64,000 nt of DNA from an uncultured Flavobacteriaceae bacterium (GTDB lineage: Bacteria > Bacteroidota > Bacteroidia > Flavobacteriales > Flavobacteriaceae). The DNA lies in contig CANLUH010000007.1 in the NCBI GenBank assembly GCA_947494205.1, positions 62,001 through 126,000 of the forward strand, read 5' to 3'. This document shows, piece by piece, positions 13,768-24,116 of the stretch; position 1 is the stretch's first letter, and each line of letters begins with the position of its first letter. Below the pieces are notes generated by a model, which was given only the letters and a program-made list of their open reading frames with translations, was not told the origin of the DNA and did not search any database. The translations under genes were made by a program, and so were the position numbers.

Positions 13768-14547
13768 TTAATTACTCTTATTAAAGATTGTATCTAAGTG
13801 ATATTCTAAAAAATCCTTTCTAGGTAAATAATTTTTTGGTTTTGAAATTTTTAAATTTTCAATATGAGAAAAATGACTTTGATAAAAGGGAGTCTGTTCT
13901 TTCTTTTTTAGACTACTGGATAGTATCACTTGATAGTTTTGATTGATTCCTATTAGCCCTCTATCAAATGCTTTGTCATAAAGTGGTGAAAAGCAAATAC
14001 CATTCTCAGGATTTAATCTTTCACTTTTATTTTCTGACCAAGGTATAATGTGACTAGCCAATAGTAATTCAGGTAAATCAATTCCAGAAATAGCACATTT
14101 AGTTCCATAATTTGCTAAAACCATTTTTCTAAATACCGACTGATTTACTCTAGTTTTAGTTTCTTTAATCACAGTTTCTCCTTTTAAATCTTTTAAGTCG
14201 AAAAGTAATTCTTGATATTTATTTTCTATAGAAGTATTTTCTTTTTTCGCTAGAATCTTTTCGCTAAGGAAAACCAATTCTTCTTGATTATTAAAGAACT
14301 CATCCCAAATTGGTTGACATTGTTTTATCCCGCCTTTCATACCTTTTATCCCTCTGTTTTTATGGTATGGATCACAAGAAGCAAAATTTGTAAGTCGAAT
14401 ACTTATAGCGTTAACTGAACGATTCAATAAATTTGCTAATTCAATAATTTCTGGTGTTCCTGTATGCATTTTACCAAAAGGAAGCTTCAAATATAAATTG
14501 AATGCAAGTATTAATTCTTCTTTTGACCAGAGATTACGGGCTCCCAT
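13768..14547 (-). CDS. HNH endonuclease (restriction-type), last gene of defence operon
   Basis: 259 aa. Residues 1-55 look like a DNA-binding segment ('WSKEELILAFNLYLKLPFG...IELANLLNRSVNAISIRLTN', SANT/helix-turn-helix-like). The HNH domain is at about 140-205: 'NYGTKCAISGIDLPELLLASHIIPW', 'NPENGICFSPLYDKAFDRGLI', with Cys151, His166, Asn182 and Tyr190. Many relatives carry His where this one has Tyr190. It starts 3 bp after the receiver-domain gene and ends the operon, so it is the likely effector nuclease. Its target may be DNA lacking the methylation made by the operon's methyltransferase. Confidence 0.88.
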   Translation of the reverse strand: MGARNLWSKEELILAFNLYLKLPFGKMHTGTPEIIELANLLNRSVNAISIRLTNFASCDPYHKNRGIKGMKGGIKQCQPIWDEFFNNQEELVFLSEKILAKKENTSIENKYQELLFDLKDLKGETVIKETKTRVNQSVFRKMVLANYGTKCAISGIDLPELLLASHIIPWSENKSERLNPENGICFSPLYDKAFDRGLIGINQNYQVILSSSLKKKEQTPFYQSHFSHIENLKISKPKNYLPRKDFLEYHLDTIFNKSN

Positions 14548-14550
14548 TCT

Positions 14551-16284
14551 TTATTTTTTTACAAAATCAACACCAACTCTAGCGGGATGACCAAAAGCAT
14601 GATTTGCAATTCTTTGCGTATAATCATTTCTTAAAGTAATCACGTATTCTACTTCAAAATGATTTAAATCTTGATTCAAACCATCCTTTTGGGTTTTATT
14701 AGTTATATCCCAAATATTTAATTTATTTTCAATTAACTTATTATTCGTAACATTATATACTTTAGGTTTTATATAAAAAGGACGATATAGAAATTTGTTT
14801 AATTTATCAATATTAGATTCTAGTTTTTTAGTCTTTGATTCTAATTTTTGGATATCAGCAATTAATTTACCTGGCTCTTCTTTTGAACCTTCTAGTTGTA
14901 TGTCTTTTATTTTACTTAATTGAGGGTTATCAATATTACCCCAACTGACTACCTTTCCGTCAGGTAAATAGCTTAAGAATGCTGTATCACCTAACATTAA
15001 AGCTAATTCGACATCTTCCAATTCAGTCCCTTGCACAAAATAATAATTAAAATCAATTTTATCAGGATAATAACAATCACATAAAGCAGTAATACATAAA
15101 TAATAGTTTGATGCTTTATCTATAAAAATATCACCAAAGTTTAAGTTGAGAATATCTGAATCTGTAATACTTTTTACTGTAACAGCATTATAAAATGTAT
15201 TTAATTGTATAAGATCTTCAGACTTCGCTTTGCTTGTTAAAGTTTTTCCATGAGTTTCTAAAAAATCAGATTGCAGTATTTTTAACTTTGCAGTTCTTAA
15301 TTTTAATGTTGCTTGTTCTAATAATAATTTTTTAATAACTATTCCAAATGTCTTGTCATCATTTATATGACTCCTAAAATTAAATAAAGCTTCAGTTGAA
15401 GATTTTAATATTGTATTATCAATAAACTGTTCACTCGAATTAAATACGGATTGCATTTCAATGCCTAATAACTGAAAAAAACTGCTCTCATTTTTTATTA
15501 CTTCATCTGAAATTCTGCCAATTAATTTTGAAAAATCATTATCTATCTCTTCATTTTTTTTTAAAGTAAAGACTAACGTATTATTAATTAAAAAAGAATT
15601 ATCTCCAGTGTCTACAACATCAAACCCTTCAATATTCTCATTTTGAAAAATATATTTTTCATTTTCAATCCCTATTATTATTAAATCTAACAAGTCTTCA
15701 AAGCTATGATTTTTACATTTTTCGATTGGGAAAGTTTCATGTTCAATTTCATTTTCTATAAAAAAATCTTCTATCGAATTCGAACTACTTTTAAACTCAT
15801 TAATATCTGAAATATCTATATATTCATATTTTTCTGAAATACTCACAAAATTCTTTTTTGTTAAGCCAGAGAAATAAGCTTTTAAAAAAAATGGTATCTT
15901 ATTGAAATTTGAGGCACTTGAATAGATGCAAGTAAAGTTTATATAAGGCAAACTTATTGCATGTAATAACAATTCAAGTGAAAACTCTTGTCCACTGACG
16001 TCATCTAGTTCCCAATCTAACAATATCAAATCTTTATTATTGAATAAATACTCAATAATTTTTTCGTCCTTTATATCTGTTTTATTGAACTTATGCACAG
16101 TTAAACTTTTTCCATTATCTTTAAAAGTATTATATAAATTAATGGATAATTTTTCTTCAGGAATGTCAGTATTAATTGGTTCCCCTGAAAAAAAATCTTT
16201 TGCTTTTTCATCAATATAAACTGCTGAATTTATAGACGAAGTAAGTATGTCATGTGCTTTTTGTCTGTACATTTTATTCAACAT
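14551..16284 (-). CDS. Receiver-domain (response-regulator-like) protein of the defence operon
   Basis: 577 aa. Residues about 18-150 look like a divergent receiver domain: an acidic pair in 'SAVYIDEKA' (Asp25/Glu26), the phospho-acceptor Asp90 in 'LILLDWELD', and the strand 'FTCIYSSAS' with Ser at the switch position. The remaining 400 residues have no family I recognise, apart from a short coiled segment near 470-500 ('LIADIQKLESKTKKLESNIDKLNKFL'). It overlaps the ATPase gene upstream by 11 bp. I infer that it receives phosphate from, or is allosterically read by, the kinase-like half of that ATPase and passes the signal to the HNH nuclease. Confidence 0.75.
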   Translation of the reverse strand: MLNKMYRQKAHDILTSSINSAVYIDEKAKDFFSGEPINTDIPEEKLSINLYNTFKDNGKSLTVHKFNKTDIKDEKIIEYLFNNKDLILLDWELDDVSGQEFSLELLLHAISLPYINFTCIYSSASNFNKIPFFLKAYFSGLTKKNFVSISEKYEYIDISDINEFKSSSNSIEDFFIENEIEHETFPIEKCKNHSFEDLLDLIIIGIENEKYIFQNENIEGFDVVDTGDNSFLINNTLVFTLKKNEEIDNDFSKLIGRISDEVIKNESSFFQLLGIEMQSVFNSSEQFIDNTILKSSTEALFNFRSHINDDKTFGIVIKKLLLEQATLKLRTAKLKILQSDFLETHGKTLTSKAKSEDLIQLNTFYNAVTVKSITDSDILNLNFGDIFIDKASNYYLCITALCDCYYPDKIDFNYYFVQGTELEDVELALMLGDTAFLSYLPDGKVVSWGNIDNPQLSKIKDIQLEGSKEEPGKLIADIQKLESKTKKLESNIDKLNKFLYRPFYIKPKVYNVTNNKLIENKLNIWDITNKTQKDGLNQDLNHFEVEYVITLRNDYTQRIANHAFGHPARVGVDFVKK

Positions 16285-19162
16285 TTTTTGAAATTATAAA
16301 ACAAGCTCCTTTTAAGGTATTATACTTCTTATCGTTATTAGCATTAATATCTAAGCCTGATTCATTTAAACTCTGTTTTGAAAGGTATAATCCAATACCT
16401 CTACCGTTTGGTCGCTGAGAATAGAATAATTCAAAAATGCTTTCTAATCTATAATCTGGAATCTTATCGCCTGAATTTGCGATTATTATCTCTTCAGTAT
16501 CTTGAATAAAATCCAATTTAATAACCCTCTGTTCTTTATTTCTCATCCAATAAATAGCATTATTTATTACATTTATAAAAACGGTAAATATTATTGGTTC
16601 TTTTATTCTGATTACATGATTTTTAAAACTATTTGAAACATCAAACTGAATATTATATGCCTCAATTTGTTTTTCAAAAAATTCTAACAAGTATTCATAA
16701 ATTGAATTACAAGACACATCTTTTATTGTTGCACCTGAAATTCTGTATAAGGGAGATAATAATGTATATTTATCTTCTAATTGTTTAAAATTCTTTTCTA
16801 AAAATTTAAATTCTTTAATTGAATTAAAATTATCATTAGAATTCAATATATGTAATTGATGATTTATTCTAGCATATAAGTGATTAAATTCATGATCTAT
16901 TATTTCTACAGCAATACCCAGTTGGGCAGTGTCCCTGGTCTGTTCCCATTGGTATTTCATTTGATCATATTGCATTTTATAAGCGCCTTGAAGCTGTTCT
17001 TCATCAATATCTAAAGAAAGCCTATTTATATGGTTTACCAAGGGAAATAATTTATTTTCGGCTTCTTCAATTAAAATATTGTACTTGTTTTCAATTGATT
17101 GATTTAAATCATGTATTTGTTGTTTGGAAACAATAGAATCTATAGTTCTTTCTTTTCCTTCTTCTAAAACTTGAGAAAGTTTTCGCGCTTTTTCATTATA
17201 ACTTTTAAGAAGCTCCTTAAATTTTGAATTTAATATTTCTTTATGACTATTCGTTTTCTTTTGAATATCTGAAATATAACTATTGTATTTTTTAGCAAAA
17301 TCTATTTTTAAGTCTCTTACTTCTAATTTGTCCTGTGCTTTTGTATTTAGTACTTCTCTTTTATCAGAAACACTTTCCAAGTAATGATTTAACTTGTTTT
17401 CAAATTTATATAAACGCTCCCTTTGTTTCTCTGTAGGCTTATACCTCTTAGGTACTTTTGGAAGTAAATCTTTAAATTCGAGATCTAGTTTTTGTAAATT
17501 ATCTAAAATAGATTCAATTTCTGAGTAACCTATATTTACTATATTTAACTTTTCATCTAAATTAGTGAGGAGTTTTTCATATTCTACTTGATATTTTTCT
17601 AGGTTTTTTAAATATTCGTTTAATGATTTGGTAAAAGCAATTTTCTCTTTTTTCTCTCTAGCTTTATCTGCGTTTAATGCTTCATGTTGTTTATTTAATT
17701 CCTTTTTCTTGTCTATGAAAATTGATTCTTTTGCTTCTGTAGAAAAATAATCCGATGCTAAGTTTATAAAAAAGTTAGAAGCATCACTAACAAATGCTCT
17801 ATATTGAGAATTATTTATAAGTCCTTCCCTACTTGATTTATCTTTTAATTTAGAATTTATTTTTCTTTTAAGATCAATATACCCAAACATTCTTCTATAA
17901 GAAAAATAGTACGTACCAGCTCTTTTAGACCTTCTTTGTTCAAAATTCAAAAAATCTGCATTGTGACGTCCATATGGTAAAACTCTAAACTCATCTCTGT
18001 ATATATAAAGACCTCCATATTCTTTAGCTTTTTTTCTAATTTTGAAAAATTCATTTTCACTTAGATTTGATGACTTTTCTTCACCTTGAGTATAACCTAA
18101 TTCAATAGGTATTTTTCCATAAAAATTTCTGTTATCTTTTTTTCTTGGATTTTGATAAGAGTAATCAATAATTTCATCGTAAATCCTTACAATACCTTTA
18201 AATAAACCATTACCATCGAATTCACCTTTAATATAAACATCTGCTAATTTAAAATCTGATTTATCAAAAAAACCTCCTTTAGATGTTAATAAGTTATAAG
18301 GTTGCTGCTCTTTATATATGTTGAATTTAGTAAGTGCTTCTACACTTGTTTCTTTAAATGGATTTGAAAAACCCGACAAACTAGAAATGACAAAATTTGT
18401 GTCTTCAACTTTATCTTCATCTTTTTCAGAAAGATCTAATATTTGATCTATTGGGTTAAATGTTAAAAATAAAGTACCATGCTCTTCTTTATTAAAGAAT
18501 TCTATAATATGATTATTAACAGGTTCTTCTATATTAGCATTATTAATATCTGAAATTATTATTTCTTTTAGTTCTATTTGCTTGTCTTCCCAAATTAGAA
18601 TGTCAGAATCTTCATTCTCTTCAAAGTTTTGTAAAAATTCTTTTTTTAAGTCTTCTAAGGAATCTTTTAATCCTTTTATATCACTTAGTGATTTGATTGG
18701 AATATTTATGTCATCTAAAAATAAATTGTAATTTTCAAGCAATCTCCAATCGAAAAAAACAGCTTGTATATCAAAACCTGTTTTTTTGGTTAGCATTAAC
18801 ATTGGGCTACCAATGTAAGCTATAGATAAACGGCCAATACCTTTTTCTCCTGCCTTAACACGAGGTTTCTTCCATAGTGTATTTTCAGATTCAACGTCTA
18901 AATCTGCTCGTGATTTAGAGTCTGTACCTAGAACTAACCATTTATCAAGAATATCAGTATTTGACATTCCTTTTCCATCATCAGAAATAATAAAATAGGA
19001 GTTCTCCAAATTATCATATCCAGCTTTAAATAACTCAGCCTTTAAATTATCTGCATAAGCATCATAACCATTTTTCCATAATTCTGTTATGGCTGTGGGT
19101 AAATCGGCAATTTGTCCTTTTCCAAGTAAATCTACAGCTCTTGCTTTGGTTCTAAATTGCAT
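16274..19162 (-). CDS. Double GHKL ATPase: MORC/Hsp90-like N-terminus plus histidine-kinase-like C-terminus
   Basis: 962 aa. The N-terminal GHKL ATPase (about 1-130) has the N-box 'AITELWKNGYDAYAD', the G1 motif 'DDGKGM' and the G2 motif 'GEKGIGRLS'. The middle (about 490-740) is a long Lys/Glu-rich coiled coil. The C-terminus has an H-box-like 'IIDHEFNHLYARINHQL' (about 755), an N-box 'FINVINNAIYW' (about 865), a second G1 'ANSGDKIP', an F-box 'IFELFYSQRP' and a G2 'GRGIGLYL' (about 921), the order seen in sensor histidine kinases. Gene overlaps of 11 bp on both sides indicate translational coupling. It is likely the sensor or motor of the defence operon. MutL/MORC-type ATPases in restriction operons are known; the added kinase half is unusual. 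Confidence 0.82.
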   Translation of the reverse strand: MQFRTKARAVDLLGKGQIADLPTAITELWKNGYDAYADNLKAELFKAGYDNLENSYFIISDDGKGMSNTDILDKWLVLGTDSKSRADLDVESENTLWKKPRVKAGEKGIGRLSIAYIGSPMLMLTKKTGFDIQAVFFDWRLLENYNLFLDDINIPIKSLSDIKGLKDSLEDLKKEFLQNFEENEDSDILIWEDKQIELKEIIISDINNANIEEPVNNHIIEFFNKEEHGTLFLTFNPIDQILDLSEKDEDKVEDTNFVISSLSGFSNPFKETSVEALTKFNIYKEQQPYNLLTSKGGFFDKSDFKLADVYIKGEFDGNGLFKGIVRIYDEIIDYSYQNPRKKDNRNFYGKIPIELGYTQGEEKSSNLSENEFFKIRKKAKEYGGLYIYRDEFRVLPYGRHNADFLNFEQRRSKRAGTYYFSYRRMFGYIDLKRKINSKLKDKSSREGLINNSQYRAFVSDASNFFINLASDYFSTEAKESIFIDKKKELNKQHEALNADKAREKKEKIAFTKSLNEYLKNLEKYQVEYEKLLTNLDEKLNIVNIGYSEIESILDNLQKLDLEFKDLLPKVPKRYKPTEKQRERLYKFENKLNHYLESVSDKREVLNTKAQDKLEVRDLKIDFAKKYNSYISDIQKKTNSHKEILNSKFKELLKSYNEKARKLSQVLEEGKERTIDSIVSKQQIHDLNQSIENKYNILIEEAENKLFPLVNHINRLSLDIDEEQLQGAYKMQYDQMKYQWEQTRDTAQLGIAVEIIDHEFNHLYARINHQLHILNSNDNFNSIKEFKFLEKNFKQLEDKYTLLSPLYRISGATIKDVSCNSIYEYLLEFFEKQIEAYNIQFDVSNSFKNHVIRIKEPIIFTVFINVINNAIYWMRNKEQRVIKLDFIQDTEEIIIANSGDKIPDYRLESIFELFYSQRPNGRGIGLYLSKQSLNESGLDINANNDKKYNTLKGACFIISKNVE

Positions 19163-20222
19163 TCATATGATTTTTAATTATTGCTTGTCCTACTCTTTTT
19201 GCATACTCTGGAGGAACTGCGTTTCCAATTAATCTAGCTATACTTCCCATACTAGTTCCTAAAAACTTATAAGTCTTAGGGAAAGATTGTAATGTAGCTC
19301 CTTCTCTAATAGATAAAGCTCTATTTTCTTCAGGATGTACAAAACGTCCATTAGAAACACTGAAAAATTTTGTAGTAATTGTTGGTGATGGCTTATCCCA
19401 CCATAACCTACCAAAAGTATCTTTAAAAGAAGTATCCCTATCTATAAAGCAATTTAATTGAAGTTTTTTATCATTAGCAAAGCTTAAACGATTCCCTCCA
19501 TCTTTTTCAACTCTTTCTAAGCGTTTTAATGTTAATTCACTAACATTAGGAACTGAATGATTAAAGTCAGTTAAATCTTTGTGTCCAGCCTTTATTTTTG
19601 AAAAACCGTTTTCTTCTCCAATAACATCTCTAACTGTTAGTTTTTTTCTTGATTTAATAGGTACTAACTCTTTATCAGTAATTCTATTTGCTATTAGAGT
19701 AAACCGCTTTCTGTTTTGAGGAACACCATATTCAGATGTGTTATGAATTTTAAAGTGAACTTTATACTTATTAGATTCAAGCCAATTTATAAATGTTTCT
19801 AAACCACTTTCTCCTTTTTTACGTAAAACTCCTGGAACATTTTCGACAACAACATAACCAGGATTAAAATACTTAACAAATCTTTCAAATTCAACTAATA
19901 AGTTTTTTGATTTTTGAGACTTCTTTTTATCAGTATTTATAATACTCCAAAACTGACAAGGACTACAACCAATAAGTAATAATTCATCATCATTACGTTT
20001 TAGTTTCAGAGTTTTTTCTAACTCTTCTTCTTTCAATTCAAAAACATCAGCTTTTATAAATTTATCCTTACCTATGTTTGCATTATAAGTTGCTCTACAA
20101 TTCTCTTCATAATCAATCCCTGCTAAAACCTGAATCCCAGATTTTTGCATACCATAGCTCATTCCGCCTCCGCCGCAAAAGAAATCTACAGCTTTAATTT
20201 TTTTTTTATTTTTTGTTCTCAA
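19152..20222 (-). CDS. DNA (cytosine-5) methyltransferase, first gene of defence operon
   Basis: 356 aa. Motif I 'VDFFCGGGGMSYG' (about 12-24), motif IV with catalytic Cys89 in 'GCSPCQFWS', motif VI ENVPG (127-131), motif VIII 'QNRKR' (169-173), a target-recognition region, and motif X 'GNAVPPEYAKRVGQAI' near the end. It modifies cytosines in a specific site, presumably to protect self DNA. Translation appears to start at a TTG (20222), since an in-frame stop lies three codons upstream and motif I follows at once. It overlaps the ATPase gene by 11 bp and leads the operon. Confidence 0.92.
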   Translation of the reverse strand: MRTKNKKKIKAVDFFCGGGGMSYGMQKSGIQVLAGIDYEENCRATYNANIGKDKFIKADVFELKEEELEKTLKLKRNDDELLLIGCSPCQFWSIINTDKKKSQKSKNLLVEFERFVKYFNPGYVVVENVPGVLRKKGESGLETFINWLESNKYKVHFKIHNTSEYGVPQNRKRFTLIANRITDKELVPIKSRKKLTVRDVIGEENGFSKIKAGHKDLTDFNHSVPNVSELTLKRLERVEKDGGNRLSFANDKKLQLNCFIDRDTSFKDTFGRLWWDKPSPTITTKFFSVSNGRFVHPEENRALSIREGATLQSFPKTYKFLGTSMGSIARLIGNAVPPEYAKRVGQAIIKNHMNAI

Positions 20223-20548: not shown

Positions 20549-21871
20549 TTAAGAACGAGAGTGTCCCATCACTGGACAAACAGTACCAAGAGATTTTTTA
20601 CTAGCTACTTCTGGGGCATCTGTTTCCGTTGGTAGTTGAATTAAATCTAAACGTCTGTTTTCTGGGATATCCTTCAAGCGTCGTAATGTATTTACTTGGA
20701 TGTGTGGCCATAATGTTGTACCACCTGTAGCTCCAAATTGGAACTCAAAGTCTACAATTTGCTCGTATTGTAACTGTTCTATAAGTCCTCCGAATTCTTC
20801 ATCGAAAACTTCTTCTATCCACATACGGTAGCGCATTCTAGCAACGCGACAGTAGCGCTCTATCATTACATTATTAACGATACCACCTTGAACACCTGTG
20901 TTATGCAATGAGTCTAACTCAATCATATCGTAACTTTTAAACTTCAGTTTCTCGTTGGCATCCGTTAACTTTAGGTTTGGCTGAACGGTGTATGGAAACT
21001 TAGCACCAAATTCGTCGTAGTTAAAAATTTTCTGAAAGTAGGCACGTCCACTGTTTACACCAGTGTTACCTGGTCCTCCGTTAGGATTTTGTGCTTCACG
21101 AGGGAGTTTTGTCCAATCTGGCTTCTTGCGTGAGCCAGCAATTAAATCGGTCTCAGGATCTATACCCATAGATGGCGATATTGCTAAATATTGTTGTTCC
21201 CAAAGGTTGGCAATGTGTGGTGCTTTACCTTCTCCAGATTCTGTGATGTTACCTGTTAAGTGTATGGTTGTACCATGAGGAATTACCCCAGAACGAGAAA
21301 TTTGATACGGTGGCACAAACTGAGGGCCTAATTCTCCTGGACCAATAACTGGCTCTCCTCCGTCTGTTTTTACAGAATCAGCATCGGATGTATGCTTAAA
21401 CATAGTCGGTGGGTTTTGATATGGACTTTTATCTTTCCAAGGCATATCATGATCGCCCAACCATAGATACATACCGTCCTCAAAGTGTTGAAGGTCGCCA
21501 TCGGTGTCTATAATTGCTGTTTCATATTTAACGGCTGCGTTAAACTGCTCGTTAGATCCTGCACGGTTACGAACAGGTGCATTAACTTGCGTAAACTTAA
21601 GTTGTTCTGTGTATTCCTGAGATTTAAAATGGAAAACACCAAAAATTGTTTCTGAGGATGTACCCGGTGAAGGCATTGGCGTGGTGTGTAACCCTGTTGG
21701 TCCATCTTTCCAGTTCACCCAAGTACCATTAAGTTTCGATAAAATACCGAATTGTGCGCCTTTGTAAGGGCCGCCTTTCGGTAGGTCTTTTTCCCATTCT
21801 ATGTACGGTCTTACAGAAGATTTTTGTGGCCCTTTTGTTATTGGCTCTACGTTTTCGTTTGGTTTTTTCAT
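20549..21871 (-). CDS. Uncharacterised 440-aa protein, partner of a flavin amine oxidase
   Basis: 440 aa, no signal peptide, acidic and rich in Gly/Pro. The N-terminal part ('GAQFGILSKLNGTWVNWKDGPTGLHTTPMPSP...ETIFGVFHFKSQEYTEQLKF') has the look of a one-domain beta-barrel, such as nitrobindin-like heme or lipocalin-type folds, but I cannot confirm this. The C-terminus carries 'CPVMGHSRS'. It follows the amine oxidase gene on the same strand after a 145-bp gap that contains a palindromic repeat. Co-occurrence suggests it handles the oxidase product or hydrogen peroxide; that is inference. No catalytic motif is recognised. Confidence 0.6.
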   Translation of the reverse strand: MKKPNENVEPITKGPQKSSVRPYIEWEKDLPKGGPYKGAQFGILSKLNGTWVNWKDGPTGLHTTPMPSPGTSSETIFGVFHFKSQEYTEQLKFTQVNAPVRNRAGSNEQFNAAVKYETAIIDTDGDLQHFEDGMYLWLGDHDMPWKDKSPYQNPPTMFKHTSDADSVKTDGGEPVIGPGELGPQFVPPYQISRSGVIPHGTTIHLTGNITESGEGKAPHIANLWEQQYLAISPSMGIDPETDLIAGSRKKPDWTKLPREAQNPNGGPGNTGVNSGRAYFQKIFNYDEFGAKFPYTVQPNLKLTDANEKLKFKSYDMIELDSLHNTGVQGGIVNNVMIERYCRVARMRYRMWIEEVFDEEFGGLIEQLQYEQIVDFEFQFGATGGTTLWPHIQVNTLRRLKDIPENRRLDLIQLPTETDAPEVASKKSLGTVCPVMGHSRS

Positions 21872-21911
21872 AATAGATTCCTTTGTAAATTAATAGTTGT
21901 TTTATTTTTTT

Positions 21912-22003
21912 GAGAACATATCGTCAATTCGAGTCATTTTAATATTGAAACTGTTCTCGATACAACCCCGATAGCTATCGAGGTCACTCGAACTGACGAT
22001 TCT
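21912..22003. repeat. Flavobacterial dispersed palindromic repeat
   Basis: Outer arms ATCGTCAATTCGAGT (21920-21934) and ACTCGAACTGACGAT (21986-22000) pair with one mismatch. Inside are 'GAAACTGTTCTCGATAC' and the perfect palindrome CGATAGCTATCG (21969-21980). I recall this sequence type as a common intergenic repeat in flavobacterial genomes. Here it interrupts a presumed operon, so it may attenuate the last gene or stabilise mRNA ends. Confidence 0.65.
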
Positions 22004-22016
22004 TACATGCAAATGT

Positions 22017-24116
22017 TTATGCTGGACAAATAAATGGATACTCTTTATCGTCTATTAGTTTTTCTATATTAAAGAAATCGTTTAATACCGATTCTGCAGT
22101 ACAGAAGGCGCCTTCTACCCAAGCTTGATCATTAGAGTATGTGGATCCAACAATAAAAAGATTGCTATCTTTTCCTTTTACTAAGGTCGATGGCTTACGT
22201 ATTTTTTGTTGTACATCTCCAATATTATAATGCGAATAATAGGCATGATATCCTGCTTTAAATGGTGGTAAAGACCAGTCCATATATTTGGTTTCTAAAG
22301 GTTCTGGAATTGCTGTATAACTGGCCTGAGAACCAAAATGTAAACTTGCTAATTGCTGACGTAACATTTTTACCATGATTGCAGGTGCTTTACGTGGGCC
22401 GTCTAAGGGTTGTGTGTCTTTAGATTCTGCGACTTCTCGTTCTCTATTTGGTCCTATTTCTAAGGCTTTCCAGAAGGTTGTATAGCGTATATCGTCGTAA
22501 CTTGCTAGAATTCCGTACACTTTTTCACCTGTTTCGCTACGTGCATTGTCACCAAAATAAACCACTTGTCTAATAGGCATATCTGTTGCACTTGGACCAA
22601 TAGTATCTAAATGTGCAATCCCAGTAATTTGTTGTGCTTCTTCGTAAGTAAAATTGGCCTGTACAATGGTTTCGGCAGCACTTAAAAAATCGGCTTCATT
22701 TGTATAGGTAGTATCTATAAGTGACGTTACAGAATTATCGTACGATTTACCTTGTGCTTCTGCTTCTAGTTTTGCTTGTGCAGCTTCGGAAGCTGCTTTT
22801 TCTATAGCTTCTATATATTTAGGAGGAAACTTAGCTTCTGCAAGTGCTTCAACACCTTCTTGAGTTAAAAAATAACTATTCAACTTTGCTGGATATTTTG
22901 GAGGCGACGGAATATCGTCTCGCCACCAAGGCGAATCAAAGAACATTCCAATTTTATACGACGGTTGCATTAAAACGGATTCTAAATACAATTGTACTCT
23001 GTCTTCATTTAAAACATCGAAATCGTCTTCATTTTTATTCATATAACGTGTCGCTTGTGCTACTAAATCTATAGCATAGCGTCCCATGGCTAGAAATGCT
23101 GCGTCACAAGTTTTTGAATCTAATTCCTTATTGGGTTCTTTTTTGCTTGCTGTTGTGTAATGAATAACATTGTTGTTTTCTATAATAGAACGTAGTCTTG
23201 TGTTAGAATAATATTCGAAACAGATGCCTTTCTCTTCTGCTAATTTCACAATTTCTTGAAACAGTGTAGAGAAAATACCAGAATACCCAATAGTTAATGT
23301 TTTATAAAGTGTTCCGGGTGTAAACTCATTATTTACTTCGAAAGATTGCGCAGAATTACTATTTACTACATTAGAAGAATAGCCGTTACCATCTGCTAAA
23401 TAGCTAAAGCCTTCTTGTCCTAAAACATCATAGGCTAAGTTCCAATAGCCAATATCTTTTAATTTTTGACCTTTTTCGAAGATGGACTCATCTCCTAAAT
23501 CTTTTGTTATTTTTCCGTTTTCGTAAAAGTCGCACCATTCATTTCGTGTTGGTGGTAAGGCATCTCCAGAAACATCAATACCTACGCTTTCTATTTTTGT
23601 AAACCCGTCGTCTGGACCAGAGTCTGCGCCGTAATTATTTACATTATATGGTGCTGGATTTTGAGCATCGATATCTGAGGTATACATGCTTTTTGCTCGT
23701 AATGATAAAAGCGGATCACTAGCTTCGTTAAAAGGCACAGAATATTGTTCTAAACCAATTTCGCTAATGGTTTTGGTAACTAATCGATGTCCAGGGTTAT
23801 TACCATCGTTAGGATTCGGGTTGTTTTTTGTTTTTTTATAATCCCAGGCAGAATAGCGCATCCCTCCTAGTTCTAAATAAGACGCGTCTGGATTGTCTTT
23901 ATAATGCCAAGTACACACTCTGGCTCCTGCTTCTCGGGTTCCTTTTTCTTCATCTGAAAATTCGTATTTCCCCCAATCGTATAATTCTAAAGTGTCTCCT
24001 GCTTTTAAAATTTTAGAGGTATCGCTTTCATTTGCGGGTTTTCCTTGAAGTAATCGCCATGCGGTGTATAAACCAGCGGCTCCTGCTCCAAAAATTGAAT
24101 AGGTCTTGTTTTCCAT
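22017..24116 (-). CDS. Flavin-dependent amine / L-amino-acid oxidase family protein
   Basis: 699 aa. The FAD-binding G-x-G-x-x-G is at residues 10-15 in 'IFGAGAAGLYTAWRLLQG'. The second conserved strand is 'ASYLELGGMRYS' (typically E-x-G-G-x-R in flavin amine oxidases), and the C-terminal FAD site lies in 'DSNLFIVGSTYSNDQAWVEGAFCTAESVLNDF'. The family oxidises an amine or amino acid to an imine, which hydrolyses to an aldehyde or 2-oxo acid with hydrogen peroxide release. It is longer than typical members. The preceding gene (10-bp gap) encodes a 2-oxoacid decarboxylase, so an aromatic or branched L-amino acid is a likely substrate. Confidence 0.85.
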   Translation of the reverse strand: MENKTYSIFGAGAAGLYTAWRLLQGKPANESDTSKILKAGDTLELYDWGKYEFSDEEKGTREAGARVCTWHYKDNPDASYLELGGMRYSAWDYKKTKNNPNPNDGNNPGHRLVTKTISEIGLEQYSVPFNEASDPLLSLRAKSMYTSDIDAQNPAPYNVNNYGADSGPDDGFTKIESVGIDVSGDALPPTRNEWCDFYENGKITKDLGDESIFEKGQKLKDIGYWNLAYDVLGQEGFSYLADGNGYSSNVVNSNSAQSFEVNNEFTPGTLYKTLTIGYSGIFSTLFQEIVKLAEEKGICFEYYSNTRLRSIIENNNVIHYTTASKKEPNKELDSKTCDAAFLAMGRYAIDLVAQATRYMNKNEDDFDVLNEDRVQLYLESVLMQPSYKIGMFFDSPWWRDDIPSPPKYPAKLNSYFLTQEGVEALAEAKFPPKYIEAIEKAASEAAQAKLEAEAQGKSYDNSVTSLIDTTYTNEADFLSAAETIVQANFTYEEAQQITGIAHLDTIGPSATDMPIRQVVYFGDNARSETGEKVYGILASYDDIRYTTFWKALEIGPNREREVAESKDTQPLDGPRKAPAIMVKMLRQQLASLHFGSQASYTAIPEPLETKYMDWSLPPFKAGYHAYYSHYNIGDVQQKIRKPSTLVKGKDSNLFIVGSTYSNDQAWVEGAFCTAESVLNDFFNIEKLIDDKEYPFICPA

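Follow-up and report, generated by a model that had tools for sequence, protein, structure and literature searches.

A predicted clamp-kinase/receiver pair in a C5 methylase operon of a Flavobacteriaceae bacterium, with sister pairs beside phosphorothioate-type and other DNA-marking systems

The window analyzed here, 64,000 nucleotides of a contig from an uncultured Flavobacteriaceae bacterium, contains four overlapping or abutting genes, all on the minus strand, in the order C5 methylase, kinase, receiver protein, and HNH nuclease (Table 1). The locus belongs to the HEF_HK/Response_reg_2 family, a published class that would work like a soluble two-component system. Gene order shows that the same module of clamp-kinase, receiver, and output domain recurs beside phosphorothioate systems and other methylases, and the sister pairs include ones that Pfam misses or underscores and that were found with the output domain as a probe. 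Our best explanation, to which we give as a whole close to an even chance, is that the locus is a restriction-modification operon resembling type II, into which a two-component switch is built and in which the HNH_2 endonuclease is probably the restriction enzyme. A preliminary description of this DNA had noted kinase-like motifs and a receiver Asp in adjacent defence genes. The analysis supports a histidine-kinase-like protein adjoining a receiver protein in a methylase/HNH operon; both folds are predicted and the key residues are invariant, and we regard the two-component reading of the pair as plausible. Chance occurrence of the motifs was ruled out by Pfam matches far above chance and by residue conservation.

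Table 1. Features of the operon in the window (residue numbers refer to the encoded proteins).
Feature	Position	Strand	Evidence or remark
C5-cytosine DNA methyltransferase, 356 aa	19152..20222	-	PF00145, E=3.9e-54; 3' end shares 11 bases with kinase start
MORC-headed predicted histidine kinase, 962 aa	16274..19162	-	ORF, Pfam, and structure; 3' end shares 11 bases with receiver gene
MORC/Hsp90-like GHKL and transducer module, residues 1-490	17693..19162	-	Structure match and invariant ATP-motif residues
Extended segment, helical for the most part, about residues 481-720, interpreted as coiled coil	17003..17722	-	Predicted secondary structure
DHp (HEF_HK) helices, residues 721-805	16748..17002	-	Pfam and structure model
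Candidate phospho-acceptor His757	16892..16894	-	88/88 aligned kinases
CA (HATPase_c) domain, residues 811-960	16283..16732	-	N-box and G2 intact; G1 altered (N896, K900)
Receiver protein (Response_reg_2), 577 aa	14551..16284	-	ORF, Pfam, and structure model
Receiver domain, residues 17-261; strand 5 preceded by a large helical insertion	15502..16236	-	Structure match to PorX
Candidate phospho-acceptor Asp90	16015..16017	-	90/90 partners
Lys243, end of last receiver strand	15556..15558	-	90/90 partners and model
Uncharacterized C-terminal output domain, residues 374-577 (G384, C397, C402, D403, R569)	14554..15165	-	Conservation and profile
HNH_2 endonuclease, 259 aa	13768..14547	-	PDLC04132, E=3.7e-85

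The kinase showed Pfam matches to HATPase_c_3 (PF13589, E=1e-11), HEF_HK (PF19191, E=1.8e-18, residues 747-809), and HATPase_c (PF02518, E=5.8e-11), all above the cut-offs and with HEF_HK lying between the two ATPase domains. A profile of 82 kinases found solved histidine kinases (ThkA 3a0r, E=2.1e-21). The structure model was of moderate quality (pLDDT 83.1, pTM 0.59) and weak at residues 747-755 and 801-805, i.e., around DHp. Its residues 735-959 aligned with the histidine kinase 4gcz_A (Z 18.9, rmsd 4.6, 221 residues aligned), and residues 1-490 aligned with MORC3 (5ix2_A, Z 20.0, rmsd 4.2, 342 residues aligned), SMCHD1 (Z 18.8), and Hsp90 (Z 17.7-17.8). The N-terminus has a GHKL and transducer fold with intact ATP motifs. 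The pair had been described as being without a sensor or output domain, which did not hold, since the kinase matches these ATPase modules in its N-terminal part and a conserved domain makes up the C-terminus of the receiver protein.

For comparison, 93 loci were chosen by the kinase alone, namely the best 80 of 428 relatives in species genomes and 13 viral contigs. The conservation alignment comprised those loci, eight more, and the window; kinases shorter than 900 aa and receivers shorter than 480 aa were left out, and filtering at 90% identity left 88 of the 96 kinase rows and 90 of the 94 receiver rows. In the 88 kinases of this set, which includes the best 80 of 428 relatives, E27, N31, D34, D61, G63, G65, G105, K107, G108, and G110 of the N-terminal module were invariant, and so were His757, N864, N868, G898, G920, G922, and G924 of the kinase part. 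An H-box-like motif, N-box, F-box, and G2 in sensor-kinase order had been noted before, and we located them at His757, N864/N868, F910, and G920/G922/G924. The H-box, formerly placed near residue 755, stood as a motif; the sequence HEFNHLYARINHQL begins at His757, a candidate phospho-acceptor histidine on the DHp helix.

The ATP site of the CA domain has intact N, F, and G2 boxes, while the G1 box reads N-S-G-D-K versus D-x-G-x-G, and the preliminary description was right to list no G1 box. Position 896, that of the G1-box Asp, which we take to be the adenine-contacting residue, was N in 77 and D in 11 of the 88 kinases (again including the best 80 of 428), and the second G1 Gly was mostly lost (kept in 13/88). 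Residue 758 beside the histidine was E in 68 kinases, Q in 19, and D in 1 of the same set, and all 19 kinases with Gln758 carried N896. With an altered G1 box and, in some, Gln758, the kinase of the window clade may be weak, nucleotide-switched, or dead. The altered box counts somewhat against simple kinase activity in this clade; the kept N-box argues that the CA domain still binds a nucleotide. The change, which is the chief caution about the two-component reading, is confined to the side of the family that includes the window protein and possibly marks a nucleotide switch or a weakened kinase.

The receiver protein matched PF19192 (Response_reg_2) with E=1.3e-19, and its structure model was good (pLDDT 91.4, pTM 0.85). 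Residues 17-261 aligned best with PorX (8ted_B, Z 9.8, rmsd 3.2, 116 residues aligned), and ArlR, HemR, and many other receivers also matched; unrelated NmrA-type Rossmann rows reached Z 8.8, only about 1 under the best receiver match. Foldseek alone gave no match for the receiver protein at E<=0.001, and the assignment of the receiver fold therefore draws on the structural aligner, Pfam, and the active-site residues together. The lack of a receiver fold in structure prediction had been named beforehand as evidence against the pair; such a fold was predicted. The receiver had been assigned to residues 18-150: the fold agrees with solved receivers, and the extent needed correction, as the domain reaches about residue 261. 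The PorX match and the location of K243, where the last strand ends, point to an insertion of about 90 residues separating strand 4 from strand 5. The acidic pair D25/E26 and D90 in 'LILLDWELD' were found exactly where they had been reported.

In the 90 receiver proteins of the alignment (including the best 80 of 428 relatives) D25, D90, and K243 were invariant, residue 26 was D in 53, E in 35, and N in 2, and residue 122 was T in 74 and S in 16 (S122 in the window protein). The receiver fold comes with the acidic pair, the Asp, the Thr/Ser, and the Lys. PorX consists of a receiver and a PglZ-type domain, and the receiver part alone aligned; according to the accessible part of PMC12839542, PorX is a response regulator whose output is of the phosphodiesterase type. 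In the sampled phylum the Response_reg_2 family is rare (9/395 genomes over the cut-off, source genome included; 17/395 at E<=0.001). No output domain was found in eight further genomes with weak PF19192 matches below the cut-off (frames of 243-261 aa).

It is conceivable, but in our view unlikely, that the kinase and receiver parts of the window clade are relics, with the clamp ATPase acting on DNA and the receiver being a mere docking platform without phosphate transfer. The altered G1 box in 77/88 and Gln in place of Glu758 in 19/88 kinases (set including the best 80 of 428) fit such a decay, as does the fact that the kinase protein has its strongest structural match in MORC modules, whose action involves no kinase. 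The invariance of His757, N864, N868, the G2 glycines, and D25/D90/K243 in the same set counts against it because a relic would not need these residues, and the normal D-x-G-x-G is kept in all 15 sister kinases described below.

The gene order was also compared in the 93 loci, which again include the best 80 of 428 relatives. A receiver gene was present within 600 bases downstream of the kinase gene in 88 loci; four of the other five were cut inside the kinase and one was broken. In 83 of the 93 loci the C5 methylase gene immediately preceded the kinase gene in the same orientation. In the other 10 loci it was convergent after the receiver gene (four) or on the same strand after it (one), the assigned methylase frames exceeded the overlap limit (two), or no C5 methylase was seen (three). 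The gene following the pair was scanned for 38 proteins, i.e., 37 of 40 downstream neighbors (L050, L108, and L110 left out) and the HNH nuclease of the window. Matches were to AAA_15 (9), Vsr (7), HNH_2 (6), C5 methylase (4), and NOV_C (3); the AAA_15 ATPases beside the pair are presumably OLD-type nucleases. A suitable next gene was lacking in 31 loci, some of them cut by contig ends. Among the matches listed for 29 convergent neighbors (25 of 55 families), C5 methylase and HNH_2 occurred four times each and DUF6602 and AAA_15 twice each, and the remainder were single matches, mostly to unrelated genes. Large neighboring genes were considered as missing nucleases: seven upstream and three downstream proteins were scanned, and none was a plain restriction nuclease. 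An Eco57I-type N6 methylase follows in locus L068, and the other scanned large neighbors were mostly housekeeping proteins or had no assignment.

The methylase-kinase-receiver core is steadier than the nuclease (methylase upstream in 83/93 loci, including the best 80 of 428, with a varying third gene), as would be expected if the pair served modification, controlling or loading the methylase (or phosphorothioate) machinery, with the nuclease as an optional passenger. We consider this improbable, since HNH, Vsr, or AAA_15 genes follow in many loci and defence systems often swap effectors while the sensor core is kept.

The C-terminal half of the receiver protein gave no significant Pfam match. 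The output domain found there carries the signature 'G-D-I-F ... Y-x-x-C-I-T-x-x-C-D' and 'R-V-G'; in the 90 receiver proteins (including the best 80 of 428) G384 and C402 were conserved in 90, D403 in 88, and C397 and R569 in 86. The fold lists for the whole receiver protein were filled by receiver matches, and the absence of other folds there carries no meaning. For the output domain itself, a MazF/PemK-like fold was tried and rejected: the Foldseek top 50 gave four weak MazF-type chains (5cqy_B, 0.24; 5xe2, 0.63; 6l2a, 0.78; 5co7_C, 1.1), the viral library listed one PemK/MazF protein at E 1.6 and gave nothing at E<=0.001, and a PemK profile alignment, a weak test with three PemK rows, gave no match. 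Alignments A3 and A4 contained rows from the window and related loci only, A4 without L094.

The accessible part of PMC7464106 (2020) reports that kinase genes adjoin SspE in 211 strains of Acinetobacter and conjectures a two-component system, yet a classical transcriptional system setting expression of the operon is quite improbable here, as no DNA-binding output was detected across 85 receiver proteins, in which PF19192 alone was common, and as the kinase and receiver genes overlap inside the operon they would regulate.

A profile of the output domain, built from PF19192-type proteins alone, was searched in 395 genomes, and matches at E<=1e-6 were followed (those at E 0.0035 to 0.05 were left out). 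It recovered nine known loci and four more proteins (E of 8.4e-10, 4.7e-9, 1.7e-8, and 6.6e-7) that had no Pfam match at E<=0.01. The gene preceding each of the four encodes a protein that combines HATPase_c_3 with a C-terminal HATPase_c and in which HEF_HK was just under the cut-off in two cases and absent in two. The first sister locus reads, on one strand, SspB-SspC-SspD-PbeA-small gene-PbeC-small gene-kinase-receiver protein (PADLOC). In the second, similarity to the first identifies SspB, SspC, SspD, and PbeA, and the listed ORFs follow one another in the same way; the third reads SspC-kinase-receiver protein-SspD-SspF-SspG-SspH. The fourth pair (L158) comes after a methylase-like frame of 175 aa, in which a TSPPY motif was recognized by eye and Pfam gave no match. 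The contig that holds L158 (G215:C134) carries a second, different clamp-kinase/receiver pair (L020) about 5 kb apart, which goes with a C5 methylase.

Plasmid records were searched with two of the sister receiver proteins. Nine matched, one of them the same as another in length and position, and the eight distinct records have annotated phosphorothioate-type genes in the cluster (PAPS reductase, DUF4007, class-V aminotransferase/cysteine desulfurase, FtsK). All 11 phosphorothioate-type loci that were opened (three genomes and eight plasmid records) lie in Ssp-type clusters, a count that is not an unbiased rate, since the search seeds were themselves phosphorothioate-type. SspD was present at E<1e-90 in 8/385 genomes, three of which are genomes with a pair, and at E<=1e-20 in 19/385, where those beyond the 8 are partial matches. 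Further sister pairs adjoin an N6_N4-type DNA methylase (Allorhizobium), a C5 methylase (a genome from the class of a Vibrio), and, on a Campylobacter coli plasmid (L183, 5989-12387), a C5 methylase and an AAA ATPase; the latter pair is annotated as sensor histidine kinase and response regulator. In the class-wide sample around the Vibrio genome, 6/369 genomes had the output domain, the central genome included. The kinase of the window matched 28 Campylobacter plasmid records, and its receiver protein gave no match in the plasmid records searched.

The 15 sister kinases (11 + 4) that were aligned all had a histidine in the His757 column with E or D beside it, both Asn of the N-box, and a normal D-x-G-x-G; the first G2 glycine was Arg in 4 of 15. 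The sister receivers had the receiver Asp in 15/15 (14 by pattern, one by eye) and the CD motif of the output domain in 15/15. One of them was near-canonical (PF00072, E=1.5e-6, 28.8 bits versus a cut-off of 30.2).

We therefore return to the operon as a restriction system with a built-in switch. In the model that we consider about evenly balanced between right and wrong, with a slight lean to the latter, the MORC-like N-terminal clamp would close on ATP and bind or scan DNA as a dimer, as its fold suggests; DNA as the input is suggested by the clamp together with the genomic context. The coiled coil would relay the state of the clamp to the kinase part (DHp-CA). Judging by the conserved residues, this part may phosphorylate its own His757, and the phosphate would then move to Asp90 of the partner. 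Phosphorylation of Asp90 might change the contact of the output domain with the nuclease or methylase and so license cutting of unmarked DNA; this is the weakest step. The reuse of the module across marking systems suggests that it may read something general about DNA that is foreign or unmarked, and not one methylated sequence. Rather doubtful, but of wider reach, is the idea that one mobile phosphorelay of MORC-like clamp-kinase and receiver-output protein is the self/non-self switch of 5-methylcytosine, amino-methylation, and phosphorothioate defence, with intracellular DNA as input and licensing of a nuclease, not transcription, as output. If a phosphorylated receiver does gate the nuclease, restriction would be a regulated signaling response and more than a passive reading of missing marks. 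Coupling of a MORC clamp to a histidine kinase would also offer a simple way of reading out, in bacteria, what MORC ATPases sense on DNA. The wider set of sister pairs makes it testable how modification-based defence decides when to cut.

The accessible text of Bellieny-Rabelo et al. 2021 (PMC8011034) defines both domains, gives 91.6% linkage over 644 regions, and reports an enrichment of restriction-modification systems with C5 methylases, with N6/N4 methylases also in the network, Vsr downstream, and HNH_2 in Flavobacterium and others. It describes the loop extensions and the conserved strand-5 Lys of the receiver, proposes the N-terminal GHKL as a sensor, perhaps of NTPs, and infers a paraMORC origin. 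The new mode of input suggested in the preliminary description is consequently not new, as the family, its restriction-modification linkage, and the N-terminal GHKL as a possible sensor were already in that paper. Its pairs resemble the window in having HATPase_c_3, HEF_HK, and HATPase_c, an adjacent Response_reg_2 gene, an upstream C5 methylase, and a nearby HNH_2. To this our analysis adds an output domain, how far the receiver extends in the window protein, the alteration of the G1 box, and sister pairs located in phosphorothioate loci; the match to solved MORC structures, the C-terminal output domain, the G1-box change, and the phosphorothioate-type sisters are absent from the accessible text of that account.

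In the accessible text of Iyer et al. 2008 (PMC2292703) paraMORCs are placed in restriction-modification loci. Like the window protein, the MORC/paraMORC ATPases have an N-terminal GHKL and transducer beside methylases and Vsr or other nucleases, whereas some families have C-terminal nuclease or TIR extensions and, within that text, none has a histidine kinase. Ssp/Pbe phosphorothioate clusters contain sister clamp-kinase/receiver pairs; unlike them, the window operon uses a C5 methylase, and the source genome had no match to SspD (PAPS reductase) at E<=1e-20. The accessible main text of Rakesh et al. 2024 (PMC10853773) on phosphorothioate loci names no histidine kinase, receiver, MORC, GHKL, HATPase, or MutL, and that of PMC12421847 (2025) mentions a two-component system near Ssp in A. 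baumannii. In a search outside which most subscription papers and bioRxiv preprints lay, we found no paper linking the pairs of methylase type with those of phosphorothioate type or giving the output domain a name, and no demonstrated phosphotransfer, DNA binding, or phage phenotype for the family in the literature searched.

Residues 85-255 of the HNH nuclease match the NCBI model of a phosphorothioate-DNA restriction endonuclease, far under its cut-off (60 of 180 bits). The G+C content is 0.26-0.29 in the three bins of 14001-20000, which is lower than in the flanking bins (0.326 and 0.365). When the flanks were compared for an empty site, the left flank matched one congener and the right flank the second one, and a comparison split in this way gives no inference. 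Two genes adjoin the operon at 20549-24116, one of 440 aa and one of 699 aa, the latter called flavin amine oxidase-like from reading its sequence, and the stretch 20555-22500 has 78-85% DNA identity to one congener. Kinase or receiver frames are interrupted in loci L045, L050, and L078, suggesting decay or sequencing error. The kinase is present on thirteen IMG/VR contigs (L107-L119), and some copies may therefore travel in prophages or their borders.
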